Part shown: in pieces, positions 17,973 to 35,675 of the stretch
How the letters are laid out: each line of letters opens with the position of its first letter
Position numbering within the stretch: the stretch's first letter is position 1
Assembly: GCA_028868695.1 (NCBI GenBank)
Contig: JAGWTZ010000010.1
Location: 1 to 64,000, forward strand
Source of the DNA: Alphaproteobacteria bacterium
GTDB lineage: Bacteria; Pseudomonadota; Alphaproteobacteria; Rhizobiales; Aestuariivirgaceae
Length of the DNA: 64,000 nt
Direction: 5' to 3'
Notes under the pieces: model-generated
The model's input: the letters and a program-made list of their open reading frames with translations, nothing else
Database searches by the model: none
Told to the model about the DNA's origin: nothing
Position numbers and translations under genes: made by a program

Positions 17973-18968
17973 TCAATCCCGCTTGCCGCCGCGCCGTTCC
18001 AGCAATGCAGTGGCCGTCGCTTCGCTGGTGATCAGCACATTGGCCTTGACGAGCTTTAGGCCGCCCAGCAGCGCATCCACTTTTTCGAGCCCCCCCGAAA
18101 TCAGGACGCGACGCGGAACTGAAATCAGCCGCTCGATCGGCATCGACATCACGCGGTCGTTGATGGGGTGCTTCACCAGCCGGCCTTCAAGGTCAAAGAA
18201 ATTGTTGAGCATGTCGCCCACCGCTCCCTTTTCCTGCAGCGACCGGCGTTCCGCGTCACTCATGAAATTCATCCGGAAAGCGGTGGACTGCGCCGACATG
18301 TTGCCCACAGAGAGCAGCGCCATGTCCATTTTGGCGCTCTTTTCGAGAACCTCGTTCAGGCCGCACTTGTCGATCAAGGCCTGCCGGGTCTTGGGAGAAT
18401 CAACCAGCGCCGGCGCGGCCAGCAGATAGCAGTCAGCGCCAATCAGCGAAGAAAACTGCCAGGCAAATTCGGCCGGGTTGAACTGGCGCGCCTGGACGAT
18501 GCCGCCGAGAAGCGAAATCACCTCAACCCGCTCCAGCTGCCGCGGCGCCAGCGTCTGGAGAGACTCATAAAGCGTTGCGCCCCAGCCCACGCCAATGCAG
18601 GCGCCGTCCTTCAACTGGTCGGTGACATACATGCCAGCCGCAGCGCCAATGGCCTTGGTGATGGCCGCAGGCGAAGACGGCTCCGGCACCACCACACATT
18701 CATCAAGGCCAAAGGCCTCCTTGAGCGCTTTTTCAAGTTCAAGGCATTCAGCAACATGCCCGGTGATCCAGATGCGCACCTCATGCTGCTTGATCGCCTC
18801 ATTGATGTTGCGGATGACGGTGACACGGCCAATGCCCAATACATCGGCAATCTCGCCCTGCGTCAGGCCTTCGACATAATACATCCAGGCGATCCGCATG
18901 CGGTTGCGGGCGATGCGGCCCGAGGTGGCGTTCAGAACTTCGGCCTTTTTCTTCTTGCTGGGCGGCAT
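17973..18968 (-). CDS. SorC/DeoR-type sugar-binding transcriptional regulator
   Basis: 331 aa; HTH MYYVEGLTQGEIADVLGIGRVTVIRNINEA; C-terminal sugar-binding domain (IGVGWGATLYESLQTL). Confidence 0.88.
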   Translation of the reverse strand: MPPSKKKKAEVLNATSGRIARNRMRIAWMYYVEGLTQGEIADVLGIGRVTVIRNINEAIKQHEVRIWITGHVAECLELEKALKEAFGLDECVVVPEPSSPAAITKAIGAAAGMYVTDQLKDGACIGVGWGATLYESLQTLAPRQLERVEVISLLGGIVQARQFNPAEFAWQFSSLIGADCYLLAAPALVDSPKTRQALIDKCGLNEVLEKSAKMDMALLSVGNMSAQSTAFRMNFMSDAERRSLQEKGAVGDMLNNFFDLEGRLVKHPINDRVMSMPIERLISVPRRVLISGGLEKVDALLGGLKLVKANVLITSEATATALLERRGGKRD

Positions 18969-19044
18969 GTGCCGACGATTAGTTTAAATGTGGAAACAAG
19001 GCAATATTGTCCAGATGGCAAAAAATCGCTTCGCAGGCCTCAAT

Positions 19045-19078
19045 GATACATTTGCGCATCGGCAACATATAATGTATA
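19045..19078. promoter_or_regulatory. Candidate SorC operator site 1
   Basis: GATACAT-N20-ATGTATA. Confidence 0.55.
19068..19073 (+). promoter_or_regulatory. Candidate -10 element (TATAAT) for the sRNA
   Basis: Perfect TATAAT in the intergenic region; -35 not convincing. Confidence 0.45.
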
Positions 19079-19079
19079 G

Positions 19080-19224
19080 AAATGATGGGTCGCTGCCGTG
19101 ACCCCCTGGCATCCTTCCCGAGAGGGAGGGCATGTGCATTGGCGGCGATCCATGTTGTTTCCCGTGGCCGCAAGGTCACAAACTTGCGTCTGTCACTCCG
19201 CCGGGTTCGCCCGGCGGTTTTTTT
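19080..19224 (+). ncRNA. Candidate intergenic small RNA with four hairpins
   Basis: TATAAT just upstream; hairpins GGGTC-gctgccgt-GACCC (19087-19104), CCTTCCC-GAGA-GGGAGGG (19113-19130), GTGGCC-GCAA-GGTCAC (19164-19179), CCGCCGGG-TTCG-CCCGGCGG plus T7 (19198-19224); no plausible ORF. Confidence 0.6.
19198..19224 (+). terminator. Intrinsic terminator with UUCG loop
   Basis: 8-bp perfect GC stem CCGCCGGG/CCCGGCGG, TTCG loop, seven Ts. Confidence 0.85.
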
Positions 19225-19225
19225 G

Positions 19226-19951
19226 TTAACGGCCCTGCAGATGCGCCTTGGCTTCGGCCCAGCTGGAAAAAACCTCCGAAGCGCCCGCCTGCTTCAGTTT
19301 TGCAGCCTGATGCGGCCCGCAATGGCTTCCGCCGACATACCCATAAGCCGTCATTCCGGCTGCAACTGCGCCCTGCACACCGTAAACTGAATCTTCAAAA
19401 ACCGCGCAGGCGCTGGGCTGTGCCGAACATTGCGCCGCCGCGTGCAGAAACAGGTCCGGCGCCGGCTTGCCATGCTTCACCATCGCAGAGTTGAACATCC
19501 GCCCGGCCTTGAAATGCGCATCCACTCCGGTGATGTGCAGGCTGAGGACAATGCGCTCCAACGCGGAGGAAGAGGCCACACAACGGTGGTGAGGATCGCC
19601 GCCCAGGAAATCAATGATGCCCTTGGTGGGTTGAAGGGTTTCGTGCATCAGCCGCTGAACCTCGCGCCAGATGTTGGGAATGCTGTGGTCGGGCAGTTCG
19701 AAGCCGGTTTCCTTTGCGATGAGGGCTATGATGTCTTTCTGCTTCATGCCCACGCAGCGCGCCATCACCTCGTCACGCAACTCCACGCCGTGCTCGGCAT
19801 AGGCCGCCTTGTGCGCTGCGGCAGAGATGGGTTCCGAATCAACCAGAACCCCGTCACAATCAAAAATGAAAAGTTCGAATTTTCCCAAAGCCGTCCGTCC
19901 TGCCAATTGCGCGCTTGAACACCAATTTTGTTTGTCACTCACTAGAACCAT
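19226..19951 (-). CDS. HAD family hydrolase (beta-phosphoglucomutase-like phosphatase)
   Basis: FELFIFDCDGVLVDSEPISAAAHKAAYAEHG; start codon uncertain. Confidence 0.85.
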   Translation of the reverse strand: MVLVSDKQNWCSSAQLAGRTALGKFELFIFDCDGVLVDSEPISAAAHKAAYAEHGVELRDEVMARCVGMKQKDIIALIAKETGFELPDHSIPNIWREVQRLMHETLQPTKGIIDFLGGDPHHRCVASSSALERIVLSLHITGVDAHFKAGRMFNSAMVKHGKPAPDLFLHAAAQCSAQPSACAVFEDSVYGVQGAVAAGMTAYGYVGGSHCGPHQAAKLKQAGASEVFSSWAEAKAHLQGR

Positions 19952-20089
19952 TTGGCTTTTCAAGGCAAAGTCAAAATTGCCCCAAGCCCATGGCGGTGAC
20001 CAGGAAAACTGAATCCGGCAGCGCAGCCTGATTCAAGATTGTCTGGCGAAACCCTTGCCGGGTGCAACGGTTCCGTCAAATCAACTTGT

Positions 20090-20123
20090 GGAACATATTG
20101 ACATATAAAAATTCAAATGTACT
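20090..20123. promoter_or_regulatory. Candidate SorC operator site 2, overlapping the PTS promoter
   Basis: GGAACAT-N20-ATGTACT; contains TTGACA at 20098-20103. Confidence 0.5.
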
Positions 20124-20191
20124 ATATTTCGAATTGGTAGGGATGATCCCGAATGCAGCGGAAGACTGCACGGGGATTTCAGGGTTGGAAA

Positions 20192-20644
20192 ATGTCAGAG
20201 TTTTTTTCGTCATTCTCTCTTGAGAATCTGCTCATCGCGTTCGTCTTGCTTTGGGTGCTGCAAGGCGTTGGAGTCTGGTTCCAGTCCCGCCGCTACATCG
20301 GAGAAATGAAAACACTGCAGGACGGCGCTTCAGAGGGCTACCTCGGTGCCGGCCATTCGCGGCAGCGTTTTGGCGCCGGCTCCATCGTGATGCTCGTCAC
20401 CGATGCAAGCCTGAAAGTCACCAAATTCAAATTGATGCGCGGCCTGACCATTTTTGCACGCTTTGCCGACAGGCCTGATTTTGTCGGGCTTGACCTGGCA
20501 GAGCTGCAGGCGCGGCTGGAGCAGGAACCCAAGAAATCTTCGCTTCGCATCGCTGGCATCAGCGCCATCAACCAGATTCTTCGCGTCAAGCGGGATCGGG
20601 AGCAGCCGGACACTTCGGCCGCCCCCGGAATGACCCCGGCATAA
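20192..20644 (+). CDS. gutM: Glucitol operon activator-like protein GutM
   Basis: MSEFFSSFSLENLLIAFVLLWVLQGVGVWFQSRRY, upstream of glucitol PTS genes. Confidence 0.8.
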   Translation: MSEFFSSFSLENLLIAFVLLWVLQGVGVWFQSRRYIGEMKTLQDGASEGYLGAGHSRQRFGAGSIVMLVTDASLKVTKFKLMRGLTIFARFADRPDFVGLDLAELQARLEQEPKKSSLRIAGISAINQILRVKRDREQPDTSAAPGMTPA

Positions 20645-20683
20645 ACCGGGGCACTCAACACAAGAGCCAGGAGGAGACACTTA

Positions 20684-21430
20684 ATGGCAATGACAACACT
20701 GATCGGTCACATGGGGGATGCAATCCAGCACCTTCCTGCCGTGACCCAAACCGCTCTGCACCACCTTCAGGGCCTGGGTTCCCAGCTTCATGATGGCGCC
20801 CAGCTCATCCAGGTGGATGTGACCGCGGAAGACATCCAGAACAAGCTGAAGGATGTGAAACAGGAATCGCAGGGCGGCGCACTCGTTTGGCTGGCCACGC
20901 ACTTCATCGGCATGTTCCAGCAGGGCGGCCAGGTTTTCGTGGGCTTCGTCTCTGGCATCATTCCCACCCTGGTGGTTCTGATGACCGCTTTCTACGCCGT
21001 CACCGGCCTGATCGGCGAAGAACGCGTGCATGGCCTGGCGCAATGGGCCGGCAAGACCGGCTGGACGCGCTACACCATTCTGCCCATCATATCGGTCTTC
21101 TTCCTGACCAATCCGATGGCCTACACCTTCGGCTCGTTCCTCAAGGAACGCCACAAGCCTGCCTTCTATGACGCCGCGGTGTCCTATGTGCATCCGCCGC
21201 TCGGCCTCTTCCCGCACGTCAACCCCGGTGAATATTTCGTCTGGGGCGGCGTTCTCGTGGCTCTTCTGGAGCTTGAGAAGAACGGCAAGGTCTCGCCGAA
21301 CTATCACATCCAGGTTGCCGTCTGGTACGCCATCGTCGGCCTGCTTGTGATCCTGCTCAAGGGCTTCGTCACTGAGTGGATCACCAACATCATCGCGCGC
21401 CGCCAGGGCGTCGATCTTGAAAACCTCTAA
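20684..21430 (+). CDS. srlA: PTS glucitol/sorbitol transporter subunit IIC
   Basis: 248 aa; GEERVHGLAQWAGKTGWTRYTILPIISVFFLTNPMAYTFGSFL. Confidence 0.88.
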   Translation: MAMTTLIGHMGDAIQHLPAVTQTALHHLQGLGSQLHDGAQLIQVDVTAEDIQNKLKDVKQESQGGALVWLATHFIGMFQQGGQVFVGFVSGIIPTLVVLMTAFYAVTGLIGEERVHGLAQWAGKTGWTRYTILPIISVFFLTNPMAYTFGSFLKERHKPAFYDAAVSYVHPPLGLFPHVNPGEYFVWGGVLVALLELEKNGKVSPNYHIQVAVWYAIVGLLVILLKGFVTEWITNIIARRQGVDLENL

Positions 21431-21448
21431 GCGGCGGGAGATCGCATC

Positions 21449-22459
21449 ATGGCATCATACAAAGCCGTAAAAGTCTCCGCCGGCAAGGGCGGCTGGGGTG
21501 GCCCTCTCGTCATCCTGCCGACGGACCAGCGCAACAAGATCGCCTCCGTCACCGGTGGCGGCATCCATCCCGTCGCCAAGCGCCTCGCCGAACTGACGGG
21601 TTGTGAAGCCGTGGATGGCTTCCGCACCCCGCCGCCGGAAAGCGAAATGGCTGCTGTCGTCGTCGATTGCGGCGGCACCGCGCGCTGCGGTGTCTATCCG
21701 CGCAAGCGCATTCCCACCATCAACCTCAACCAGGTTGGTCAAGCAGGGCCCATGGCCCAATTCATCACCGAGGACATCTATGTCTCGGGCGTTACACCAA
21801 AGGACATGGCCATGGCTGACGGTTCTGCCACCCCCACACTCGCTGGCGCTGCCAGTTCTGCCGCCGGCGCGGCTTCTGCGGCGTCTTCCGCCGCGGCTTC
21901 CATCGCGCCGGACACCAGCGGCGGCGGCCTGATCGACCTGATCTCGTCGATTGGCCGTGTCATGGGCAAGGTGGTTGGCATCTTCTTCAGTGCCGGCCGC
22001 CGCACCATCGACCAGGTTGTGCGCAACGTGCTGCCCTTCATGGCCTTCGTGACCATGCTGATCGGCATCATCCTCTACACCGGTATCGGTGACTTCCTCG
22101 CCCACTGGATGGCGCCGCTGGCCAACAACATCGTTGGCTTGCTTGTCATCTCGGCCATCTGCGGCCTGCCGTTCCTGTCGCCCATCCTCGGGCCGGGCGC
22201 GGTCATCGCCCAGGTGATCGGCGTGGCCCTCATCGGCCCGCAGCTTGCCAACGGCGCGATCTCGCCGAAAATGGCCCTGCCGGCGCTCTTTGCCTACAAC
22301 ACGCAAGTCGGCTGCGACTTCGTGCCCGTGGGCTTGGCGCTGGGTGAGGCGAAACCGAAAACCATCGAAATCGGTGTGCCTGCGGTTCTCATGAGCCGCC
22401 AGATCATGGGGCCGGTCTCGGTGATCATCGCCTATCTGTTCAGCTTGGTTGTTCTCTAA
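21449..22459 (+). CDS. srlE: PTS glucitol/sorbitol transporter subunit IIBC
   Basis: 336 aa; KGGWGGPLVILPTDQRNKIASVTGGGIHPVAKRLAELTG and DFVPVGLALGEAKPKTIEIGVPAVLMSRQIMGP. Confidence 0.88.
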   Translation: MASYKAVKVSAGKGGWGGPLVILPTDQRNKIASVTGGGIHPVAKRLAELTGCEAVDGFRTPPPESEMAAVVVDCGGTARCGVYPRKRIPTINLNQVGQAGPMAQFITEDIYVSGVTPKDMAMADGSATPTLAGAASSAAGAASAASSAAASIAPDTSGGGLIDLISSIGRVMGKVVGIFFSAGRRTIDQVVRNVLPFMAFVTMLIGIILYTGIGDFLAHWMAPLANNIVGLLVISAICGLPFLSPILGPGAVIAQVIGVALIGPQLANGAISPKMALPALFAYNTQVGCDFVPVGLALGEAKPKTIEIGVPAVLMSRQIMGPVSVIIAYLFSLVVL

Positions 22460-22471
22460 GGAACCAGCCTT

Positions 22472-22507
22472 GGCCGGGGCGCTAGGCTTGCGCCCCGGCC
22501 TTTTTTT
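22472..22507 (+). terminator. Intra-operon terminator-like hairpin between IIBC and IIA
   Basis: GGCCGGGGCGC-taggctt-GCGCCCCGGCC, 11-bp perfect stem then T7. Confidence 0.85.
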
Positions 22508-22535
22508 ATCCGATGCCACCAAGGGAACTGATCAA

Positions 22536-22907
22536 ATGTATCTGCAAACCGTAATCACCGGAATTGGCCCCGAGGTTGCCGACATGGCTGAGGGAGGTGT
22601 TGTCATCCTGTTCGCTGATGGCGCGCCGCCGGAGCTGGCCGAAGTCTCGGTGCTGCACAAGACGGTTGAAGAACCCAGCGCCAAGCAGCCGCCTGTGGGT
22701 GCTGCCGTGCGCATCGGTTCCATCGCGGTGAAGATCACCGGCATCGGCCCCACCGCTTGGGCCAAAATGACCAGCATGGGCCACATTGTGTTTGCCTTTA
22801 ACGGCGGCGATGCGTCCGACCGCCCCGGCGAGATCTGCGTCACCGAAGTTCCGCTTGCAGAACTGCTGGGCCAGTTGAAGGCCGGCATCAGGATCACCGT
22901 TGGCTGA
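22536..22907 (+). CDS. srlB: PTS glucitol/sorbitol transporter subunit IIA
   Basis: MYLQTVITGIGPEVADMAEGGVVILFADGAPPELAEVSVLH. Confidence 0.85.
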   Translation: MYLQTVITGIGPEVADMAEGGVVILFADGAPPELAEVSVLHKTVEEPSAKQPPVGAAVRIGSIAVKITGIGPTAWAKMTSMGHIVFAFNGGDASDRPGEICVTEVPLAELLGQLKAGIRITVG

Positions 22908-24829
22908 TGGTTGAGAAATCCGTCATCGTGCGCGTCAAGGAAGGCCTGCATGCCAGGCCCGCCACGCGCTTTGTGCAACTGGCCAAGAGCTTCCCTTGCG
23001 ACGTTTCGCTTGGCTACAACGGCAAGAGTGCTTCCGCCAAGAGCAGCGTGAAAGTGATGCTGCTCAACGTCAAGGAAAACACCGAAGTCACCGTCATCAC
23101 GTCAGGTGAAGGCGAGGAAAAGGCGCTTCAGGAACTGGTTGGCTATCTGAGCGATCCGCTGGCCGGGCTCGATGCGCCTGAGGCGGCCCCGCCATCTGCG
23201 CCTGAGCAGCCCGCTGCTCACAAGGCCGTGGGTGTGTCAGAAGGCGTTGCAGTGGGCAGCGTATTCCCGTTTTTCCCTGAAACCATCACCATTGACGAGC
23301 GTCGCCGCGCCGCATCGGAAATTGACGCTGAGATGACCGCTCTCGTCGCCGCCTTTGACAGGGTTTCGGCGCGCATGAAGCTGGGCCTTGCCGATCAGTC
23401 GCTGGCGGCAGGCAACCGTGCCATCATCCACGCGCTGGCCGAACTCGCCAATGATGACGCCATGCGTGCCGACATGATGGAAGAGGTGCGTGGCGGCGCG
23501 GGTGCGGTGAAGGCCATTCTCACTGTGGCCGGCCGCAATGCCGAGGCCTTCCGCGGCATGGATGACCCTTATCAGCGGGCGCGGGCCGAAGACATCGACG
23601 CCATCGGCCGCCAGCTGGCGCTGGCCGCGCAGGACAAGCATGATATTGATTTGAGTGCCGTGCCCCAGGGTGCCATCATCATCGCCAATGACATTGGTGC
23701 CTTTGAATTGGCCAAGGCACCCATCAAGAACATCGCGGGGCTCGTTTGCGCCAAGGGTGCGATGACCAGCCACATCGCCATTATTGCGCGCGCCCATCAG
23801 ATTCCAGCCGTTCTCGCTTATGGTGATGGCGTTGCCGCCTTGCGTGATGCCCGCCTGCTTGCCATCGATGGCAAGACGGGCGAGGTGGTCAAGGACCCCG
23901 GCACCGACACGTTGAAGTCTTTCTCAGAGCGCGGTGGCGCGGTGAAGGCCGAACGTGCTGCGCTTGAACCGTTCAAGCATGTGGTGCCCCGCCTGAAGGA
24001 TGGGCAGGTGATCGAGGTCGCCGCCAATATCGGCACGCTGGAGGAAATCCCGGCCGCCTTGGAAGCAGGCGCCATGGGTGTTGGCTTGTTCCGAACCGAG
24101 CTGCTTTACATGGCGCACCGCCATCTCCCATCCGAGGATGAACAGACGGAAATCTACGGCAAGGCGCTGGCCGCCTTTGCGCCGCATCCTGTCATCATCC
24201 GCACGCTCGACATCGGTGGCGACAAGCCGGTGGCGGGCATCCAGTTCCCGCATGAGGAGAACCCTTTCCTCGGCTGGCGCGGCATCCGCATGTGCCTCGA
24301 CAGGCCGGAAATCTTCAAGCCGCAGCTGCGCGCCTTGTTGCGCGCGGCACCCAAGGGCAAGCTGAAGGTCATGCTGCCAATGATCGCCGATGTTTCCGAA
24401 CTGATCCGGACCAAGGAGCTCATTTCCCAATGCGCCGCGGAACTGGCTGCTGAGGGCAAGGCCCACGGCACTTTTGAACTTGGCATCATGGTGGAAACGC
24501 CGGCCGCGGTGTTCAATGCGGCAGAGCTTGCCAAACTTTCCGCCTTCTTCTCCATCGGCACCAATGATCTCACCCAATATGTAATGGCGGCTGACCGCAT
24601 GAATGCCCAAGTTGGAGCGTTGAATGACGTCACCAACCCGGCCGTGATGAACGCCATCGCCATGGTGGCCAAGGCCGGCAGGGAGGCAGGCATCATGGTT
24701 GGCATGTGTGGCGAGGCAGCGGGACGGGTGGACCTGGCAGCGCGCTTTGTCGCGATGGGCATCACCGAGCTCAGCATGAACCCAGGCCAGGTGGCCAAGA
24801 TCAAACGCGCCCTTGCCAGCTTGAATTGA
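22907..24829 (+). CDS. HPr-Enzyme I fusion phosphoenolpyruvate-protein phosphotransferase
   Basis: 640 aa; N-terminal HPr (VKEGLHARPATRFVQLAKSF) followed by EI (GAMTSHIAIIARAHQIPAV, MVETPAAVFNAAELA, IGTNDLTQYVMAADR). Confidence 0.92.
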   Translation: MVEKSVIVRVKEGLHARPATRFVQLAKSFPCDVSLGYNGKSASAKSSVKVMLLNVKENTEVTVITSGEGEEKALQELVGYLSDPLAGLDAPEAAPPSAPEQPAAHKAVGVSEGVAVGSVFPFFPETITIDERRRAASEIDAEMTALVAAFDRVSARMKLGLADQSLAAGNRAIIHALAELANDDAMRADMMEEVRGGAGAVKAILTVAGRNAEAFRGMDDPYQRARAEDIDAIGRQLALAAQDKHDIDLSAVPQGAIIIANDIGAFELAKAPIKNIAGLVCAKGAMTSHIAIIARAHQIPAVLAYGDGVAALRDARLLAIDGKTGEVVKDPGTDTLKSFSERGGAVKAERAALEPFKHVVPRLKDGQVIEVAANIGTLEEIPAALEAGAMGVGLFRTELLYMAHRHLPSEDEQTEIYGKALAAFAPHPVIIRTLDIGGDKPVAGIQFPHEENPFLGWRGIRMCLDRPEIFKPQLRALLRAAPKGKLKVMLPMIADVSELIRTKELISQCAAELAAEGKAHGTFELGIMVETPAAVFNAAELAKLSAFFSIGTNDLTQYVMAADRMNAQVGALNDVTNPAVMNAIAMVAKAGREAGIMVGMCGEAAGRVDLAARFVAMGITELSMNPGQVAKIKRALASLN

Positions 24830-24861
24830 TACATATGTATTGCATTATGTAATAATGTATC
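24828..24861. promoter_or_regulatory. Candidate SorC operator site 3
   Basis: GATACAT-N20-ATGTATC, with inner palindrome ATACATATGTAT (24829-24840). Confidence 0.55.
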
Positions 24862-24895
24862 TTAATGGATTTTCCAACGTGAGGAACTGAACGCC

Positions 24896-26215
24896 ATGTC
24901 AATCAACATATCGCCGACGGGCCTTGCCCGTGATCTTCAGAAGCGCGCGGAAGGTGGCAAGCCGATCCGGATTGGGCTTGTGGGCTCGGGCGAGATGGGC
25001 ACGGACATCGTGACGCGCGTGGCGCACATGCCGGGCATCGAGATCGGGGCGATCTCGGAACTTCGGCCCGCGGCAGCCGGCAAGGCAGTGGACATTGCCT
25101 ATCAGGAACAGGGCCACTGGCAGGAGACCAAATCCGCTGACGCGCTGAACGCGGCAATGGAGCAGGGCAAGGTTGCGGTGACCGACAATGTCGATCATTT
25201 GATCAACAGCGGCCTGATCGATGTGGTGATTGACGCCACGGGTGTGCCTGCGGTGGGGGCCGAGATCGGGCTTCGCGCCATGGAGCATGGCAAGCACCTG
25301 GTGATGATGAATGTGGAGGCCGATGTCACCATTGGCGCCTATCTGATGCATGAGGCCCAGCGCCTTGGCGTCACCTATTCGCTGGGGGCAGGCGATGAGC
25401 CCTCGTCCTGCATGGAGCTGATTGAGTTTGTCTCGGCCATGGGCCACCCGATCGTGGCGGCGGGCAAGGGCAAGAACAACCCGCTGAACATCGACGCGGT
25501 GCCGGACCAGTATGCCGAGGAGGCCAAGCGCCGGAACATGAATGTGCGCATGTTGGTGGAGTTCGTCGACGGCTCCAAGACCATGGTGGAGATGGCGGCG
25601 ATTGCCAATGCCACGGGCCTGGTGCCCGATTGCCCCGGCATGCATGGCCCCAAGGCGACGATTGACCAGCTGTCGAGCGTGCTGGTGCCGAAGAAGGATG
25701 GCGGCGTGCTCTCGAAGATGGGGGTTGTGGACTATTCGATCGGCAAGGGCGTCGCCCCCGGCGTGTTTGTGGTGGCGGAAATGAGCCACCCGCGGGTGAG
25801 GGAGCGCATGGAGGACCTGAAGATGGGCCATGGGCCCTACTTCACCTTCCACCGGCCCTATCACCTGACCTCGCTGGAAGTGCCGCTCACCTGTGCCCGC
25901 GTGGTGCTTTATGGCAAGGCGGACATGGTGCCGCTGGCCAAGCCCGTGGCGGAAGTCTGCGCGGTGGCCAAGAAGGACATGCAGCCGGGCGAGACGCTGG
26001 ATGCGATTGGCGAATATTGCTACCGCGCCTGGATCATGACCTCTGAAGAGGCCCGCGCCGCCAAGGCCATCCCTTGCGGCTTGCTGCACAAGGCCAAGGT
26101 CACCAAGCCCATCAAGAAGGGTGAGTTGATCACGGCGGCCAATACCGAAGTGCCGGCTGATTCCAAGATCGCCGCCCTGCGCGCCAGGCAGGACAAGCTG
26201 GTTTACGCAAACTGA
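24896..26215 (+). CDS. NAD(P)-binding homoserine-dehydrogenase-like oxidoreductase with SAF domain
   Basis: 439 aa; [36 protein letters not shown]-terminal SAF-like segment ([14 protein letters not shown].., [13 protein letters not shown]). Confidence 0.82.
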
Positions 26216-26225
26216 GGACAAGCCG

Positions 26226-27254
26226 ATGAGCGCCACCGCCAAGAAAGCCGCTGCCGGAGCGGCCAACGTGCCCTTCGCCTTCCGCGCCTATACGCCGGAC
26301 CAGCTGCGCGGGGTGCTGCACAAGATGCACCTGATCCGCAAGTTCGAGGAGGGGGCGGAGGACTCTTACACGCGCGGCCTGATCCATGGCACCATGCATC
26401 TGTCGATCGGCCAGGAGGCCAGTGCGCTGGGCATTTGCGCGCCGCTGAAGGCCGATGACCAGATCACCTCGACGCATCGCGGCCATGGCCATTGCATCGC
26501 CAAGGGCGCGCAGGTGGACCGCATGTTCGCCGAGTTCTTCGGCAAGACAACGGGCTATTGCAAGGGCCGCGGCGGCTCGATGCACATTGCCGATGTGAGT
26601 GCGGGCAACCTGGGCGCCAATGGCATCGTGGCGGGCGGCATCCCCATTGCAGTGGGGGCGGCGCTTTCAGCCAAGATGCAGAAGAACGGCAAGGTGGTGG
26701 TGTGCTTCTTCGGCGACGGCGCCAACAACGAGGGCGCCTTCCATGAATCACTCAACATGGCGGCGATCTGGAAGCTGCCGGTGGTGTTTGTCTGCGAGAA
26801 CAACGGCTATGGCATGTCGACATCGACGGCGCGCTCGACGGCGGTGGAGCGCATTGCCGACCGGGCGGCGGCCTATGCCATGCCGGGTGTCACCGTGAAC
26901 GGCAATGACTTCTCGGCGGTGGCCGAGGCCTCCACCACGGCGGTGGAGCGGGCCCGTCGCGGCGAGGGCCCCAGCCTCATCGAGACCAAGACCTACCGCC
27001 ACCGCGGCCATTCCAAGAGCGACCGCAACCGCTATCGCACCAAGGAGGAGATCGAGGAATGGAAGGCGATGCGCGACCCGATCAACCTGTTCGAGGCCGA
27101 GCTGCAGCAGTTCGGGGTGATAGACGAGGCAGGAATTGCCGCGGTGCGCGCCGCCGTCGAGGCAGAAATTGCCGCCGGCATTGAGTTTGCCAAGACAAGC
27201 CCAGCACCCGCCGCCGCGGAAGGCCTCAACTTTGTGTACACGGAGCTGCAGTGA
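26226..27254 (+). CDS. Thiamine diphosphate-dependent dehydrogenase E1 alpha (acetoin/pyruvate dehydrogenase-like)
   Basis: 342 aa; [54 protein letters not shown]. Confidence 0.88.
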
Positions 27255-28252
27255 TGGACGCCAAGGTGAGAGAGCTGAGCTATTCGCAGGCCGTCCAGGA
27301 AGCCATGGCCATTGCCTTGGAGAGTGATCCGCGCGTGTTCCTGATGGGCGAGGACATCGGCGTCTATGGCGGCGCCTTCCAGGTGACGGGCGATCTTGTG
27401 GAGCGCTTCGGGCCTGAGCGGGTAATCGACATGCCCATCTCGGAGCTGGGCGGGGCGGGCGTTGCGGTGGGTGCGGCCGTCACCGGCATGCGGCCGATCT
27501 TTGAGTTCCAGTTCTCGGATTTTGCCACGCTGGCCATGGAGCAGATCGTCAACCAGGCGGCCAAGATGCGCTTCATGCTGGGTGGCGAAGTGTCGGTTCC
27601 GCTGGTGATGCGCTTTCCTGCCGGTTCGGGCACGGGCGCTGCCGCCCAGCACAGCCAAAGCCTTGAGGCCTGGCTGGCCCATGTGCCGGGCCTGAAGGTG
27701 ATCCAGCCTGCCACCCCGCATGACGCCAAGGGCATGCTGCTGGCAGCGCTGGAGGATCCTGATCCGGTGATGATCTTCGAGCACAAGCTGCTCTACAAGA
27801 TGAAGGGTGCGGTGCCGGAGGGGCATTACACGGTGCCGATCGGCAAGGCCGATATTGCCCGCCCCGGCAAGGACGCCACCATCGTTGCCACCTCGATCAT
27901 GGTGCACAAGGCGCTGGAAGCGGCTGCGGCGCTGGCCGGCGAAGGCATCGACCTTGAAGTGATCGACCTTCGCACCATCCGCCCGATTGACCGCGAGACG
28001 GTGATTGAGAGTGTCAAGAAGACCTCGCGCCTGCTCTGCGTCTATGAGGCGGTGAAGACGCTGGGCATCGGCGCCGAGATCAGCGCCATGATCGCCGAGA
28101 GCGAGGCCTTTGACTATCTCGATGCGCCGATTGTGCGTTTGGGCGGGGCCGACAGCCCCATTCCCTATAACCCCGATTTGGAGAAGGCCGCCGTGCCGCA
28201 GGTGCCGGACATCATCGCCAGTGCCCGCGCCCTGGTGCAGGGAAGACGCTGA
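27254..28252 (+). CDS. Thiamine diphosphate-dependent dehydrogenase E1 beta
   Basis: [48 protein letters not shown]. Confidence 0.9.
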
Positions 28253-28253
28253 G

Positions 28254-29513
28254 ATGGCCACCGAAGTCATTCTGCCCAAGGTCGACATGGACATGGCCAC
28301 GGGCCGCATCTCGCGCTGGCTGGTGGCCGAAGGGGCCACGGTGAAGCAGGGCGATCCGCTCTTCGAGATGGAGACCGACAAGGCCGCCATGGAAGTGGAA
28401 GCTCCGGCCGGCGGCGTGCTGGGTGGCATTGCCGCCAAGGAGGGCGTGGATGTGCCGGTGGGCCAGCCGGTGGCCTTCATCTATGCCGAAGGCGAGAAGC
28501 CCACAGTCGCGCCGCAAGCTGCGGCTCCTGCCGTGCTGGCCGCAAAGGTAGAAGCGCCTCCCGCGCAAACAGCAGCCACACCCGCCGCAGCGCCAACAGC
28601 ATCTTCCGTTCCCGGCGCCCTTCGCGCCACGCCGCTCGCCCGCCGCCTGGCGCGTGAGGCTGGTGTCAATCTCGCCGCCATCGCTGGCAGCGGACCGCAT
28701 GGCCGCATTGTCAGCGCCGATATCGAAAAAGCCAAGGCTGCGCCCAAGCCAGCCGCTGCACCCGTGGCTGCAGCGCCCAGCGATGCCGACACGCTCAAGC
28801 TCTTCGCGCCCGGCTCCTACAGCGAAGTGCCGCATGACAACATGCGCCGCACCATCGCGCGCCGCCTGCAGGAATCCAAGCAGCATGTGCCGCACTTCTA
28901 TGTCTCGGCCGATTGCCGCCTTGACGCACTCCTGAAGCTGCGCGCCGATCTCAATGCCGCCGCCCCCGTGAAGGACGGCGCCCCCGCCTTCAAGCTCTCC
29001 ATCAATGACCTCGTAATCAAAGCCTGGGCGCTGGCGCTGCGCGATGTGCCGGCCGCCAATGTCTCCTGGACCGAGGCCGCGATGCTGAGCCACGCCCATG
29101 CCGACATCGGCGTGGCCGTCTCGGTGCCCGGCGGCCTCATCACCCCGATCATCCGCGCCGCTGAAAACAAAAGCCTCTCGGCCATCTCAGCCGAAATGAA
29201 GGATCTCGCAGCCCGCGCCAAGGCCCGCAAGCTCAAGCCTGAGGAATACAATGGCGGCACCTCCGCCATCTCCAACCTCGGCATGTTTGGCGTGAAAGAG
29301 TTCGCCGCCATCGTCAACCCGCCGCATGCCACCATCTTGGCTGTCGGCGCCGGGCAAGAGCGGGCGCTTTCTGAAAACGGCAAGCTCTTCTCCGCGCAAG
29401 CGATGACCGTGACGCTTTCGACCGACCACCGGGCCGTCGACGGCGCCCTCGGTGCTGAAGTCCTCGCCGCCTTCAAGAACTATATCGAAATGCCACTCGC
29501 CATGCTGATCTGA
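28254..29513 (+). CDS. Dihydrolipoamide acyltransferase E2
   Basis: Lipoyl motif [12 protein letters not shown], subunit-binding domain [28 protein letters not shown], catalytic [10 protein letters not shown]. Confidence 0.9.
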
Positions 29514-29558: not shown

Positions 29559-30905
29559 CTAGTCGTTTGTGGCGAGATGTTCTTTCCAGCGCAGGTAAAG
29601 ATTGGCGCCGATGGTGGAGAGCGGCGGCGGCGGCAGCTTGCTGGGCTCTGCTTCGGCAGTGAAATGACGGGTGATGGCGCTGTCATGACCGCAAGCCAGC
29701 TCCGCCGCACCGATGCCCGTGAGCGTGCCACGCACTGTGCCCAGCCCATTTTGCACGCAGGCAGAGAAGAGGCCGCGGTCAAGTTCGCGCATCACGGAAA
29801 CACTGTTGCGCGACAAGCACAAGTGGCCCGCCCAGGAATATTCCATCGGCACATCCGCAAGCGCGGGAAAACGGTCATCAAATTTCTTGCGGTGGGTGCG
29901 CGCCGTGCGCTGCAGGCTCGCCTCGCTCACCTCCATGCCAGGGCTGAACACCGCGCAAGTGCGCGTGATGATGCGGTTCCCGCCAAGCGGAGTGTCAATC
30001 TTCCGCATGGTCGTGCCCATGGGGTCGGATGGCGTGATGCCCCAGCGCGGCTGGCCGCCTAGCTTTTGCAGCGCCTCGCGGCCGAGGTCCACGGTCATTG
30101 AAGCAAAGAGGAAAATGTGCATCAGCCGTTGTGTGGCGAAACCGAAACTTTCCAGGTGGCCATTGTTGGCAAGAATGACCTTGCCAGCAGAGATGCGATG
30201 GCCTTGCGCCGAAACGTCCCACGAAGCGCCACGGCTTTCAATCTTGACCACCGGCGCGTTTTCAAAGATCGCCACGCCTTCGCGGCGCAAGCCTTCTGTG
30301 AGCCCACGCACGTAGCCGGCAGGCTGGATCATCGTCGTTCCCGGCGTGTACAGCCCTGAAATGTAGTGGCGGCTGCCCGTCATCTCATGCATGGACTTGG
30401 CGTCCAGCATTTCGCTTTTTTCCCCGAGTTGGGACAAATGCCGCGCATAGGCGTGGTTGAGACCGTCTGCCTTGGCGCTGACTGCGCCATTCACCTTGCC
30501 GGCAGGATCAAAGAACGCCTTGTTGATGGCGAAGCGTTCCACCGCCTGGCCCGCAAATGCGATGGCTTGGCGGTTGAGGTCAATGATCTCGCGGTCACTG
30601 CCAAGGGCAGCGCCGGCATAGTCTTCCCCCTGGATTTCATGCGGAAGGTCAATCATGAAGCCAGAATTTCGGCCCTGTGTTCCTTCCGCGATGCGCCCAG
30701 CTTCGAGCACCACGATTTTGGCGCCCGGTGCAAGCTGGCGCAAACGCAAAGCCGCCGACAGCCCGGCAAATCCTGCCCCAATGATCGCAAAATCGGCGGA
30801 GACATTGCCGCTGAGAGCCACTGGCGGCGGCTGGCCCGGCAAGATGGCGTTCCATCCTGCCGTGCCGCGAAGCGCTGGCTTGCGCCTGGCTTCATAAACA
30901 CTCAT
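29559..30905 (-). CDS. FAD-binding oxidoreductase (DadA/gamma-glutamylputrescine oxidase-like)
   Basis: 448 aa; FAIIGAGFAGLSAALRL, GRNSGFMIDLPHE. Confidence 0.85.
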   Translation of the reverse strand: MSVYEARRKPALRGTAGWNAILPGQPPPVALSGNVSADFAIIGAGFAGLSAALRLRQLAPGAKIVVLEAGRIAEGTQGRNSGFMIDLPHEIQGEDYAGAALGSDREIIDLNRQAIAFAGQAVERFAINKAFFDPAGKVNGAVSAKADGLNHAYARHLSQLGEKSEMLDAKSMHEMTGSRHYISGLYTPGTTMIQPAGYVRGLTEGLRREGVAIFENAPVVKIESRGASWDVSAQGHRISAGKVILANNGHLESFGFATQRLMHIFLFASMTVDLGREALQKLGGQPRWGITPSDPMGTTMRKIDTPLGGNRIITRTCAVFSPGMEVSEASLQRTARTHRKKFDDRFPALADVPMEYSWAGHLCLSRNSVSVMRELDRGLFSACVQNGLGTVRGTLTGIGAAELACGHDSAITRHFTAEAEPSKLPPPPLSTIGANLYLRWKEHLATND

Positions 30906-32401
30906 GCAACCGCCTGGTCCGCATCGTCTGTCAGGTCAACCCAGATGGTTTTGAGCTCGGTGTACTGGTCATGCGCATGAATGCCATTGTCGCGCCCGCC
31001 GAAGCCGGAGGCCTTGTAGCCGCCGAAGGGTGTTGAAATATCGCCTTCGCCAAAGCTGTTCACTGTCACCGTGCCGGCCTTGATGGCGCGTGCGCCGCGC
31101 AAGGCCCGCTTGACGTTTGAGGTGAAGATCGAAGCCGCCAAGCCATATTCGGTGTCATTGGCAAGTGCGATGGCCTCATCGAAGCTTTCCACCGTGAGCA
31201 CGCAGAGAACTGGGCCGAAAATCTCCTCGCGCACCTGCGGGGCATTGCGGTCCGCCACGTCAAGGATGGTAGGCTCGACAAAACCATCCTTGGCCTTGCC
31301 TCCCATCAGCACCTTTGGGCCTTTGGCCAGATAGGCAGCGACCTTCTCAAAATGCTGCAGCGAAACCAGCGCGCCCACGCGGTTGAGGGGATCAAGCGGG
31401 TTGCCCATCGGCCATTCGCGGGCATGAGCGAGGATGAGCTTCAGGAGTTTGTCCTTCACGCCCTTTTGCACGATGAGGCGCGACGAGGCCGAGCAATTCT
31501 CGCCCATGTTCCAGAAGGCGCCATTGACGATATGGGCCGCCACACGGTCAAGGTTTTCGGCATCATCCAGCACAACGGCAGGGTTCTTGCCGCCCATTTC
31601 CAGCGTCACCTTCTTGAGGTTGGACTCGGCGGCATAACGCAGGAAGCGCCGGCCCGTCTCGGTGGAGCCGGTGAAGGAAACGGCGTCCACATCCATGTGG
31701 CGGCCCAGTGGTTCGCCCACATCCGGGCCGGAGCCTGGCACCACGTTGAATACGCCGGCCGGAATGCCGGCCTCCATCGAAAGCTCCGCCACGCGCAGGG
31801 TGGTGAGCGAGGTCTCCTCGGCCGGCTTCACGATCACCGAGCAGCCCGCCGCAAGGGCAGGGCCAATTTTCCACGCCAGCATCAGAAGCGGAAAGTTCCA
31901 CGGCAGCACCAGCCCCACAACCCCAATCGGCTCACGCACGATCATGGCGATATGATTGTCGGAGGCAGGAGAGACCTGGTCATAGATCTTGTCGATCAAT
32001 TCGGCATGCCAAGTGAGGCAGTTGATGGTCTCGGGAACGTCAACAGTCTCGCAATCGAAAATCGTCTTGCCGCTGTCCAGGCTTTCCAGCACCGCAAGCT
32101 CGCGGGCGTTGCGCTTGATCAGCTTGGCGAGGCGCAGCAGCGCTTCCTTGCGCTCTTTTGGATGCAGCTTTGACCAGCGGCCATCATCAAAAGCCGCGCG
32201 CGCCTTGGTGACGGCGAGGTTGACATCTTCCGCATTGCAGGCCGCAACCTGGGCCAGAACCTTGCTGGTGGCCGGGTTGTGCGTGTCGAACGTCTTGCCG
32301 GATTTTGCCGGGCGGAAGGCGCCGTCAATGAAGGCCTGTGTGGGAAAGGAAAGGCCCTTGGCAATTGCGGCATATTCTTCGGTCGTGAGCAGTCCGGTCA
32401 T
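30902..32401 (-). CDS. Aldehyde dehydrogenase family protein
   Basis: 499 aa; VTLEMGGKNPAVV, NMGENCSASSR, FGGYKASGFGGRDNG. Confidence 0.9.
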   Translation of the reverse strand: MTGLLTTEEYAAIAKGLSFPTQAFIDGAFRPAKSGKTFDTHNPATSKVLAQVAACNAEDVNLAVTKARAAFDDGRWSKLHPKERKEALLRLAKLIKRNARELAVLESLDSGKTIFDCETVDVPETINCLTWHAELIDKIYDQVSPASDNHIAMIVREPIGVVGLVLPWNFPLLMLAWKIGPALAAGCSVIVKPAEETSLTTLRVAELSMEAGIPAGVFNVVPGSGPDVGEPLGRHMDVDAVSFTGSTETGRRFLRYAAESNLKKVTLEMGGKNPAVVLDDAENLDRVAAHIVNGAFWNMGENCSASSRLIVQKGVKDKLLKLILAHAREWPMGNPLDPLNRVGALVSLQHFEKVAAYLAKGPKVLMGGKAKDGFVEPTILDVADRNAPQVREEIFGPVLCVLTVESFDEAIALANDTEYGLAASIFTSNVKRALRGARAIKAGTVTVNSFGEGDISTPFGGYKASGFGGRDNGIHAHDQYTELKTIWVDLTDDADQAVA

Positions 32402-32403
32402 GT

Positions 32404-33321
32404 TCAGGCCTCGGCTTCAATGTCGGCGATGGTGGATTTGAGAACGCGCACCACTTGTTCCAGCTGGCGCTTTTCATCCTTGTTGAGGGCCTTGAGCGGC
32501 GGGCGCGGCGGGCCGGCGCGCAGACCGGCGATTTCAGCGCCATGCTTGATGCATTGCACGAACTTGCCGCCCTGTTCCAGCACGGCCATGAGCGGCAACA
32601 GCGCCGACATAATGCGGCGGCCCTTGTTGAAATCACCCTTCACCGCACAGGCCTGATAGAGCGCCATATGCTCCTTTGGCAGGAAGTTGGAGCCGCCACA
32701 CACCCAGGAACGCGCGCCCCAGGCAAAGAATTCCAGCGCCTGGTCATCCATGCCGCAGGAAAGCTGGATATGAGGATAATCCCGCGCCAGCAGGTGCACG
32801 CGGTTGATGTCGCCAGAGCTTTCCTTGATGGCGCAGAAATTGCGGCTGCGGCCCACACGGTCGAGGAACTCCTCGCCCATGTTGATGCCCATGCGCCCGG
32901 GATAGTTATAAAGCATGATGGGAAGATCAGCGGCGCGGTCTATCGCCAAGGCGTTCAGCGCATTCTCGCGCTCGGTGGGAACGGCATAGGGTGGCGAGCC
33001 GACCAGGATTGCATCTGCGCCGAGCTTTGCAGCCTCTTCGGCCACATGCTGGGAATCAGCCAGACGGATGGCCCCCGTGCCGATGATCAGCGCTGTGCGC
33101 TTGCCGATCACGTCCTTGGCAAGCTTGGCCAGTTCAACGCGTTCTTCCATCGATTGCGCATAATATTCGCCAGTTGAGCCGCCATTGATGATGCCGTTGA
33201 CGCCGGACACCACCAGATAGTCAATCACGGCGCAAAAGCCGTCGCGGTCAATTGAACCGTCTTCATGGTGCGGCGTGATGACCGGCGTGTAAATGCCTTC
33301 AAACTTCATGACATTGCTCAT
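32404..33321 (-). CDS. Dihydrodipicolinate synthase (DapA) family protein
   Basis: 305 aa; NGIINGGSTGEYYAQS, YNYPGRMGINM, AIKESSGD. Confidence 0.88.
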   Translation of the reverse strand: MSNVMKFEGIYTPVITPHHEDGSIDRDGFCAVIDYLVVSGVNGIINGGSTGEYYAQSMEERVELAKLAKDVIGKRTALIIGTGAIRLADSQHVAEEAAKLGADAILVGSPPYAVPTERENALNALAIDRAADLPIMLYNYPGRMGINMGEEFLDRVGRSRNFCAIKESSGDINRVHLLARDYPHIQLSCGMDDQALEFFAWGARSWVCGGSNFLPKEHMALYQACAVKGDFNKGRRIMSALLPLMAVLEQGGKFVQCIKHGAEIAGLRAGPPRPPLKALNKDEKRQLEQVVRVLKSTIADIEAEA

Positions 33322-34079
33322 TGGCTGCGCCCCGGGGGTGTGCCGAGAGGCACCTGGATGCTTTCTGGTGAAACGAAATTCTCGATCTGGGCGCGCGAAA
33401 GCTCCCAGTGTTCCACGGCCAATGCGGCCGCGGCATCGGCGTCGCCCTTCTCGATCAGCGCGATGAACTGGTCATGCTGGTCGGCGGCGATTGCTTGTTG
33501 GCTGGCCATGTTGGTCTTGCGCGGGCTGTAGAATGTGACGCCGATGCGCGTGTGATCAATCAGCAGGCGCCGCAGGCTGGGCAGCAGATATTCATTGTCG
33601 GCCAATTCGCCCATCACCGCATGGAAGCGCTCATTCAGGATGGCGCGCTCAATGCCGTCACCACTCTTGATCGCCTGCCGGAACTGCCGCTGCACGTCTT
33701 TCAACCGTTCGATTTGCGCTGGCGTGGCATTGGCTGCGGCAAGCCGTGCCACCGCGGCATATATCATTGGCGCGGCAATGAAGAAATTGCGCAGCGTCTT
33801 GTGCGACATGGGCGCCACCTGCGCGCCGCGATTTTCGTGCAGCACCACATAGCCTTCGCCCGCCAGCTGGCGCAAAACCTCGCGCACAGGCGGGCGCGAA
33901 ATGCCATATTCACCGGCAATTTCCAGCTCATCCAGATAAATGCCCGGCTCCAGCTCCTGCGTGAGGATGCGGCGCTTGAGTGAATCGACAAACAGCGACT
34001 TCTTGCCGCCCGCGGCAGCTTCCGGCGGCTTTTTCACGGCAAACCGTGTGGTTTTGCTTTTTGATGGAGCAGTGCGCAT
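33318..34079 (-). CDS. GntR family transcriptional regulator (FCD type)
   Basis: 253 aa; ISRPPVREVLRQLAGEGYVVLHENRGAQVAP, all-alpha C-terminal domain. Confidence 0.88.
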   Translation of the reverse strand: MRTAPSKSKTTRFAVKKPPEAAAGGKKSLFVDSLKRRILTQELEPGIYLDELEIAGEYGISRPPVREVLRQLAGEGYVVLHENRGAQVAPMSHKTLRNFFIAAPMIYAAVARLAAANATPAQIERLKDVQRQFRQAIKSGDGIERAILNERFHAVMGELADNEYLLPSLRRLLIDHTRIGVTFYSPRKTNMASQQAIAADQHDQFIALIEKGDADAAAALAVEHWELSRAQIENFVSPESIQVPLGTPPGRSQ

Positions 34080-34119
34080 GCGCTCTTGGGTCCGCGGAAA
34101 GTGTGGCGTCAGATACAGA

Positions 34120-34132
34120 ATACAATATGTAT
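34120..34132. promoter_or_regulatory. Candidate GntR operator palindrome
   Basis: ATACA-ATA-TGTAT, just upstream of the GntR gene in the GntR/ProX divergent region. Confidence 0.4.
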
Positions 34133-34485
34133 AATAAATCCGTTGTCAAGCGATGCGTTGGGTTTTGCGCAAGGTGCGGACAGATTTTCCATGGCTTCGC
34201 GCGAATCCGCGCATGCCGTTCCGCCCGCGCAGTTACAGCGGATTGCCGCGTTCCGTGCAAGCTGGCTCTAAACATATAACAAAACGTCATTCTATCATAA
34301 TACAAAAATAATACATTTTTCTTGACGGCGTATTCTCGGCATGCAAGTCTCCCATGCATGTGGCGGGAAAGGCGTGCATGGCATCGCTTTCGCAGGCTGT
34401 TTCCGCGCTGGGCCGGTAGCTTCACCGAAACGCACGGGTTCGGTGCCGGTCAGTCCAAGGCCCGTGCACAATGGGAGGAATTCAA

Positions 34486-35475
34486 ATGAGGAAGTTTCTG
34501 TTTTCAGCCGTGGCTGCCTGCGCCCTGATGGGCAGCAGCCACGCTTTTGCGGCCTGTGGCGACATTTCGCTTTCGGTGTTCAGCTGGCAATCGGCCGAAG
34601 CCATGGCAGATGTAGACCAGTTCATCCTGAACAACGGCTATGGCTGCAAGGCCACCACTGTTGCCGGCGACACGGTGCCCACCATCACCGCCATGATCGA
34701 AAAGGGCCAGCCTGACCTGGCCTCAGAAGCAACGCCCAGCCTTCTTGGCGCTGTTTACACCAAGGGTGTTGAAGACAAGCGCATCAGCCAGATCGGCACT
34801 GCCATCAGCGATGGCGAACAGTCGGGCTGGTTCATTCCAAAATACCTGGCCGACGCGCATCCTGAAATCAAGACGGTTGAAGACGCCATCAAGCATCCGG
34901 AACTGTTCCCGGCTCCTGAAGATGCCAAGAAGGGCGCTGTGATCCAGGGTCCGCAGGGTTGGGGCGACACGGTTGTGACCGCTCAGCTCTATAAGGCGCT
35001 TGATCTCGACAAGAAGGGCTTCACGCTGGTGCCCACTGGTTCGGCTGCTGCTCTCGATGGCGTGATCTCCAAGGCCTACGAAGCCAAGAAGGGCATCCTG
35101 ACGCAATACTGGTCGCCCACCTCGCTGCTCGCCAAGTATCCGATGGTGATGCTCACCATGGCCCATGACGATGCCGAATGGGCACGTTGCACCTCCAAGC
35201 AGGATTGCCCCGATCCGAAGCCCAATTACTGGGGCAAGGCCGAGATGGTGACCCTGGGCAGCAAGGGCGCTGCCGACAAGCTCGGCAAGGATGCCGCTGA
35301 CTATATTGCCAAGCGCAGCTGGACCCAGGCCGAAGTTGGCAAGGTCATGCTGTGGATGACCGAGAACCAGGCCAATGGCGCCGACGGCGCCAAGTGGTTC
35401 CTCAAGAACATGCCCGACGTGTGGACCAAGTGGGTTCCCGCTGACGTGGCCGCCAAGGTCAAGGCTGCCCTCTAA
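34486..35475 (+). CDS. ABC transporter substrate-binding protein, glycine betaine/ProX type
   Basis: Signal peptide MRKFLFSAVAACALMGSSHAFAA; upstream of ProW/ProV-like genes. Confidence 0.85.
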   Translation: MRKFLFSAVAACALMGSSHAFAACGDISLSVFSWQSAEAMADVDQFILNNGYGCKATTVAGDTVPTITAMIEKGQPDLASEATPSLLGAVYTKGVEDKRISQIGTAISDGEQSGWFIPKYLADAHPEIKTVEDAIKHPELFPAPEDAKKGAVIQGPQGWGDTVVTAQLYKALDLDKKGFTLVPTGSAAALDGVISKAYEAKKGILTQYWSPTSLLAKYPMVMLTMAHDDAEWARCTSKQDCPDPKPNYWGKAEMVTLGSKGAADKLGKDAADYIAKRSWTQAEVGKVMLWMTENQANGADGAKWFLKNMPDVWTKWVPADVAAKVKAAL

Positions 35476-35494
35476 ACCTTCAGGCAAACCGATG

Positions 35495-35525
35495 TGGAGG
35501 CTCCGGCTAAACCCCGGAGCCTCCA
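35495..35525 (+). other. Stable hairpin after the substrate-binding protein gene
   Basis: TGGAGGCTCCGG-ctaaacc-CCGGAGCCTCCA, 12-bp perfect stem, no proper U-tract. Confidence 0.75.
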
Positions 35526-35675
35526 TTTCAAGATAGGGCGCCGCAAAACTGGCTGCACTTTCACTTGCCTTGTGACGCAGAGCGGGTGCTTGATGGCGTT
35601 GTTTGACGTGGCGGCAAGAAGTGAACCCGGTTTGGCCGGCAAGCGTGGATGGCGAATGCACGGGGGTGAGGCAAG

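Follow-up and report, generated by a model that had tools for sequence, protein, structure and literature searches.

How might an alphaproteobacterium use a glucitol-type phosphotransferase system (PTS) whose genes run directly into those of a 2-oxoacid dehydrogenase-type complex? This question is raised by a locus in an Aestuariivirgaceae genome (assembly GCA_028868695.1, contig JAGWTZ010000010.1, positions 1 to 64,000; these 64,000 nucleotides are here called the window). The original prediction, made from the DNA letters, had proposed that the genes suffice for a PTS-fed pathway from an unusual, perhaps branched polyol to an acyl-CoA, and had left the substrate unnamed. We judge that outline to be right. 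The protein encoded between the PTS and dehydrogenase genes is, as argued below, a DRL (alias DXR-II), and the known reaction of DRL, which interconverts 1-deoxy-D-xylulose 5-phosphate (DXP) and 2-C-methyl-D-erythritol 4-phosphate (MEP), points to 2-C-methyl-D-erythritol (ME) as the substrate and DXP as an intermediate. We consider it likely, if far from certain, that the operon serves ME catabolism, with import by the PTS as MEP, reversal of DRL to give DXP, and cleavage of DXP by E1/E2.

The operon comprises nine genes on the same strand, gutM-IIC-IIBC-IIA-HPr/EI-DRL-E1alpha-E1beta-E2 (20153-29513); consecutive genes overlap slightly or are no more than 67 bp apart. Genes for a HAD phosphatase and a SorC regulator lie upstream of gutM and are divergently oriented. 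Pfam and NCBIfam domains confirmed every gene named earlier (gutM, IIC, IIBC, IIA, HPr-EI, E1alpha, E1beta, E2, SorC, and HAD); SorC falls just short of the start proposed then, 18969. The features are as follows.

17973-18968, minus strand: SorC/DeoR-family regulator, sugar-phosphate-sensing (Pfam Sugar-bind, 216 bits)
19226-19963, minus strand: HAD phosphatase, 6-phosphogluconate/hexitol-phosphatase-like, start codon uncertain (Pfam HAD_2; NCBIfam PRK10563, 107 bits, below cut-off)
20010-20035, no strand: imperfect palindrome TGAATCCGGCAGC/GCAGCCTGATTCA, candidate operator upstream of gutM (repeat search)
20153-20644, plus strand: GutM-like protein; the ATG at 20192 may be the true start (Pfam GutM, 80 bits)
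20684-21430, plus strand: glucitol-type PTS IIC, SrlA (Pfam EII-GUT, 214 bits; NCBIfam SrlA above cut-off)
21449-22459, plus strand: glucitol-type PTS IIBC, SrlE (Pfam EIIBC-GUT_N/_C; NCBIfam SrlE above cut-off)
22449-22907, plus strand: glucitol-type PTS IIA, SrlB, start codon uncertain (Pfam PTSIIA_gutA, 87 bits)
22907-24829, plus strand: HPr-Enzyme I fusion, dedicated PTS phosphate relay (Pfam PTS-HPr and PEP-utilizers; TIGR01417 above cut-off)
24896-26215, plus strand: DRL/DXR-II, MEP <-> DXP oxidoreductase-isomerase (Pfam DRL_cat, 232 bits; NAD_binding_3 also)
26226-27254, plus strand: E1alpha of the proposed DXP-cleaving dehydrogenase complex (Pfam E1_dh, 311 bits)
27251-28252, plus strand: E1beta of the proposed DXP-cleaving complex (Pfam Transket_pyr/_C)
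28254-29513, plus strand: E2 with lipoyl, E3-binding, and 2-oxoacid_dh acyltransferase domains (Pfam)

The protein at 24896-26215 had been read as a SAF-domain oxidoreductase resembling homoserine dehydrogenase. Judged by its sequence, it is DRL: DRL_cat is its top Pfam domain, Pfam SAF stayed under threshold, and its only solved relatives are 3upl/3upy, the DRL of Brucella abortus, which match over the full length (E=2e-202). Homoserine dehydrogenase was rejected, the NAD-domain match being weak and the DRL assignment decisive. The substrate and dimer residues K191, K193, T229, R320, E174, F178, and Y322, named as important in DRL (PMC3847144), are all kept in the translation, and the checked sites that distinguish DXR-II from DLO (G121, H250, V351, etc.) are all present. 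As in Brucella, the window DRL is likely also the cell's MEP synthase; it differs from the Brucella enzyme in lying within a PTS and E1/E2 operon and in its proposed catabolic direction, MEP to DXP. It clusters with E1-linked DRLs of other families and not with the DRLs of its own genus, as would be expected of horizontal acquisition.

The PTS genes encode Gut-family IIC, IIBC, and IIA together with their own phosphate relay, the HPr-EI fusion, whose translation shows the motifs LHARPA and TSHIAIIAR. With GutM, these are homologues of the glucitol/sorbitol PTS operon (gutM-srlAEB plus srlD), and the title of Testa et al. (2004 J Bacteriol 186:473, cited in PMC3994034) reports that ME enters Salmonella via the sorbitol PTS. 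The operon departs from that model in its HPr-EI fusion, its SorC regulator, its junction to DRL and E1/E2, and the absence of SrlD, already remarked upon in the original prediction: the genes from 17973 to 29513 include no SrlD-type short-chain dehydrogenase/reductase (SDR), and none was recognized in their near neighbors. E1alpha, E1beta, and an E2 with lipoyl and E3-binding domains make up the architecture of a 2-oxoacid dehydrogenase complex; no E3 gene is present in the cluster.

We infer the substrate, the direction of DRL in the operon, the specificity of E1, and the ligand of the regulator by joining known reactions, as follows. The glucitol-type PTS would import ME, with MEP as the expected product, and DRL would run backwards, converting MEP to DXP. 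The thiamine diphosphate (ThDP)-dependent E1 would treat DXP (CH3-CO-CHOH-R) as acetoin dehydrogenase treats acetoin, cleaving the C2-C3 bond with release of glyceraldehyde 3-phosphate. Together with an E3 encoded at another place in the genome, the lipoyl-E2 would then take the two-carbon unit to acetyl-CoA and NADH. Acetyl-CoA and glyceraldehyde 3-phosphate would both enter central metabolism, and irreversible acyl-CoA formation would pull DRL backwards, so that in this genome the same DRL would work forward for isoprenoids and backward for catabolism. SorC probably senses MEP or DXP. Dephosphorylation by the HAD enzyme, earlier suggested as a step, is not needed in this route; the enzyme is probably an accessory that relieves sugar-phosphate overload, and its gene recurs adjoining PTS-type loci elsewhere (e.g., L042, L049, L060, L065, L082, L087, L093). 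The DXR reaction has been described as reversible (PMC13001223), and E. coli can form DXP with a mutant pyruvate dehydrogenase (PDH) E1 (aceE; PMC3424233), which shows that a PDH E1 can handle the DXP bond. The proposed route shares DXP and MEP with the MEP pathway (DXS, DXR, IspD-H); its flux would be reversed and would end in acetyl-CoA and glyceraldehyde 3-phosphate, with E1/E2 replacing DXS. We found no account of ME or DXP catabolism in the open-licence literature, a scope from which one published in a subscription journal may have escaped.

What, then, is the E1/E2 complex? The earlier description of it as acetoin-dehydrogenase-like stands for the E1alpha/E1beta/E2 architecture, which is that of the acetoin dehydrogenase complex (AcoABC-L), as is the proposed reaction type, in which an alpha-hydroxy methyl ketone gives acetyl-CoA and an aldehyde. 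It does not extend to identity. In trees that included E1s of bona fide aco operons (L155, L157, L163-L165), the alphaproteobacterial DRL-linked E1s formed one clade, apart from the E1s of genuine acetoin operons and of PDH (support 99/99 for E1alpha and 100/100 for E1beta), and the E1s of Priestia and C. difficile were nearest to it. Plain acetoin dehydrogenase was rejected on this grouping; unlike AcoABC-L, the operon is also without acoX, butanediol dehydrogenase, and a sigma-54 regulator. A housekeeping PDH is encoded elsewhere in the genome (E1alpha at C88, TIGR03182, 508 bits, above cut-off, versus 378 bits, below cut-off, for the operon E1alpha). This separate PDH and the separate E1 clade led us to reject housekeeping PDH for the operon E1/E2.

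Phe61alpha is a catalytic-site residue of human PDH E1 (PMC6168537), and when pyruvate analogues are docked, the residues that bind their phosphono-ester group include Phe61alpha, Met200alpha, Met81beta, and Phe85beta (PMC12655727). In our alignment (human numbering, for beta from alignment offsets), Phe61alpha corresponds to Thr56 and Met81beta to Gln87 of the operon E1. Thr and Gln were present in 19/19 DRL-linked E1s sampled, whereas all acetoin dehydrogenase and PDH E1s sampled had Phe and Met, so the operon differs from AcoABC-L at substrate-contacting sites. The pocket of its E1 is predicted to be more polar, which is what a sugar phosphate would call for. A DXS-like phosphate-binding Arg in E1beta was considered and found unsupported, as the Arg of the "RYPRG" motif in the genome's own DXS is not conserved in E1beta in the alignment.

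If the genes form one pathway, they should be found together elsewhere, and the original prediction had set co-occurrence of the DRL (then read as a SAF protein), E1, and E2 with the PTS as a test beforehand. They recur together in many families, so the refuting condition set then, a lack of co-occurrence, does not hold. Of the 98 DRL loci that had 4 kb or more of downstream sequence, E1alpha/E1beta were present in 62, with E1alpha at 500 bp or less in 59. DRL is followed directly by E1alpha-E1beta-E2 in Rhizobiales, Rhodobacterales, Acetobacteraceae, and others, and a SorC homologue was in view in 43 of the 62 E1-linked loci. The same gene set in shuffled order was observed on annotated plasmids of Nitratireductor, Terrarubrum, Pseudoroseomonas, and Rhizobium L51/94. 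Among Bacillota, for which only plasmids were sampled, Priestia has one cluster of PTS, E1alpha, E1beta, E2, E3, SorC, DRL, and FGGY kinase, with a DRL identity of 43%. Because the arrangement recurs in many families, it is not due to chance.

These linkage data already disfavor a mundane explanation, that a sorbitol PTS lies beside a paralogue of pyruvate or acetoin dehydrogenase and that the neighbors are functionally unrelated. The PTS subunits do score as SrlA and SrlE, and E1beta scores as PDH beta. However, the set recurs across phyla with its gene order shuffled, no SrlD-like SDR accompanies the operon, PDH is encoded separately, and a genuine SDR-type operon, that of Priestia megaterium NCT-2, in which an SDR and a transaldolase stand in place of DRL, has a more distant IIBC (49.6%). 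We consider this explanation very improbable.

The converse comparison, starting from the PTS, gave the same picture. Complete sugar PTSs had been said to be uncommon in alphaproteobacteria, and glucitol IIBC was indeed found in 1/387 sampled alphaproteobacterial genomes (the window's own) versus 20/62 E1-linked DRL loci. All 16 alphaproteobacterial plasmids whose IIBC was at least 70% identical (16/16) carry DRL within 14 kb, as do 8 more distant Bacillota IIBC records. One exception is a Pandoraea IIBC (58%), with no DRL annotated within 8 kb. The presence of a canonical DXR (DXR-I) was also compared with E1 linkage in 50 genomes: DRL lies beside E1 in 17/17 genomes with a clear DXR-I versus 20/33 without DXR-I (Fisher p=0.002, with no phylogenetic correction). 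In Bartonella and Brucella, DRL typically stands alone and serves biosynthesis. Since genomes with DXR-I need no second MEP synthase, the DRLs found in them argue for a role other than MEP synthesis.

The uptake module is more variable. The 62 E1-linked loci had a PTS in 18, a PfkB kinase in 25, both in 2, and neither in view in 17; in most of the PfkB-type loci examined, an ABC transporter was annotated or detected. Sinorhizobium meliloti Rm41 and R. sophoriradicis, for example, have an ABC transporter and a PfkB kinase in place of the PTS. Because the module is interchangeable, the common point of the two kinds of loci is a phosphorylated substrate that is delivered to DRL and E1/E2. This variety, which includes an FGGY kinase beside some DRLs, would also suit another branched polyol handled by the same logic, such as an apiitol-like 2-C-hydroxymethyl-tetritol or a 2-methylthreitol isomer, from which DRL would make the matching ketose phosphate for cleavage by E1/E2 or other enzymes. 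In Ligilactobacillus, DRL and a glucitol PTS are paired with an FSA-like (transaldolase-like) enzyme and transketolase, without E1/E2, and this too would fit such a substrate. Nevertheless, we regard another polyol as unlikely for the window operon. Eleven members of the DXR-II clade were verified by complementation of an E. coli DXR defect (PMC3847144), all diagnostic residues are kept in the window DRL, and for an acetoin-type E1, DXP, being a methyl ketone, is a better fit than xylulose 5-phosphate.

The uncorrected Fisher test is one of several points that weigh against ME catabolism. The loci were sampled by DRL similarity. The Listeria loci, SorC-DRL-gutM-IIC-IIB-IIA, lack E1/E2 as the Ligilactobacillus loci do, and DXP would need another fate in both. 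At the ABC/PfkB loci, the substrate could be a relative of ME and not ME itself. A C. difficile plasmid (L154:9001-20570) carries a SorC-type regulator, E1alpha-E1beta-E2-E3, and a galactitol-type PTS, but no DRL was in view. The closest E1 to that of the plasmid is the DRL-linked one of Priestia, so an acetoin-dehydrogenase label may be wrong for it. The residue changes in E1 suggest an altered specificity but do not name DXP. Lastly, the published accounts consulted treat DXR-II solely as biosynthetic.

The biosynthetic role deserves attention in this genome (3.09 Mb assembly, 99.67% complete). One DXS and IspG are present; HMG-CoA reductase was not found in the genome, nor was DXR-I in a search that matched in 10/14 control genomes, and DXR-I was found in 0/9 tested genomes of the same genus. 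The operon DRL is the only copy, and because of this combination it is probably the sole MEP synthase of the cell. The original prediction missed this point, that in a genome without another DXR the operon DRL likely has a second, essential role. A contaminant contig was rejected because the GC content and tetranucleotide usage of the operon and of the window flanks match other contigs of the genome (correlation 0.96-0.97).

The same gene complement would fit a salvage function, in which PTS-imported ME feeds MEP to isoprenoids or, via DRL, DXP to thiamine and pyridoxal phosphate, DRL being purely biosynthetic and its position in the operon incidental. The Listeria loci and a thiamine operon that adjoins one copy of the cluster agree with salvage. 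However, it leaves unexplained the near-obligate adjacent E1/E2 and E3 and the dedicated E1 clade; DRL with E1 also occurs in genomes with DXR-I, and salvage of MEP would not need DRL. Salvage therefore appears to us quite improbable, and ME catabolism remains our preferred reading.

Several relatives differ in their DRL genes. In sibling G168, DRL lies in a biosynthetic setting between a carboxyltransferase gene and EamA-DXS (L137:9616-11022), and the syntenic place in the window genome (L172:7521-7626) has no DRL, just a gap of ~105 bp. This suggests loss of the dxs-linked DRL from the window genome, or its gain in G168. A 420-aa open reading frame adjoining DXS in the window genome (L172:8574-9836) was rejected as an additional MEP synthase; nothing in NCBIfam or PDB matched it, and its sequence resembles that of a secreted or pilus-type protein. 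Sibling G095 (L176, C71:24000-40000) keeps SorC, HAD, and the glucitol PTS, with DRL and E2 as fragments only; it has neither DXR-I nor an intact DRL to supply MEP. Two other genomes of the genus (L131 in G188, L138 in G122) have a second DRL type, 55-58% identical, beside an ABC transporter, with an adjoining Fe-alcohol dehydrogenase in L131; similarity to an FGGY kinase and to SorC was noted too.

Methylerythritol occurs in plants, and 2-methyltetrols occur in isoprene-derived aerosol; the operon may be a biological sink for methylerythritol. The DXP dehydrogenase, if our reading is true, would be a new kind of 2-oxoacid-dehydrogenase-type enzyme. A function would also be given to the operons of rhizobia, marine Rhodobacterales, and Priestia, and one suggested for the DRL-PTS loci of Listeria and lactobacilli. 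Bacteria that have their only DXR in an operon of this kind would owe their isoprenoids to a catabolic promoter, a point of relevance to fosmidomycin-type drugs. A 2026 review states that no defining pattern has emerged in the distribution of DXR-II (PMC13001223), and a 2013 survey found that Finegoldia and Anaerococcus have DXR-II but no other MEP and no mevalonate (MVA) genes (PMC3847144); a catabolic role would account for both. We lean, with confidence only a little above even, toward a widespread ME catabolic pathway in which DXR-II reverses the committed step of the MEP pathway and the new E1/E2 cleaves DXP to acetyl-CoA and glyceraldehyde 3-phosphate, the scatter of DXR-II reflecting this role, and the catabolic enzyme being the only MEP synthase in some lineages, including this one.

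Additional genes were noted beside DRL clusters. Pseudoroseomonas (L160:14815-17013) and Rhizobium L51/94 (L170:679-2939) have a second PTS, of galactitol type, next to their DRL-E1-E2-glucitol PTS cluster, perhaps for a second, related substrate. In Rhizobium L51/94, the adjoining thiamine operon consists of thiC, thiO, thiS, thiG, thiE, and thiD (L170:16817-21311); ThiG uses DXP, and E1 uses ThDP. DRL clusters, with a PTS or not, often have as neighbors a GlpD-like FAD oxidoreductase and a Zn-alcohol dehydrogenase (L041:20741-23445, L082, L085, L087, L092, L098, L100), which possibly form a branch that handles an isomer or a different tetritol.

In the window itself, the palindrome at 20010-20035 is a possible operator. 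The gap between SorC and HAD (19068-19226, plus strand) contains a TATAAT-like box and a strongly folded stretch (z -4.1) that ends in a perfect terminator hairpin with a T run, and is a putative small RNA; a riboswitch was rejected, as the gap has no Rfam match, and the 30 other genomes sampled from the genus contained no similar DNA. Outside the operon, a cluster at 29559-36578 encodes a DAO-type FAD amine oxidase, an aldehyde dehydrogenase, a DHDPS-like protein, a GntR regulator, and ABC transport genes, and looks like one for hydroxyproline or betaine catabolism.

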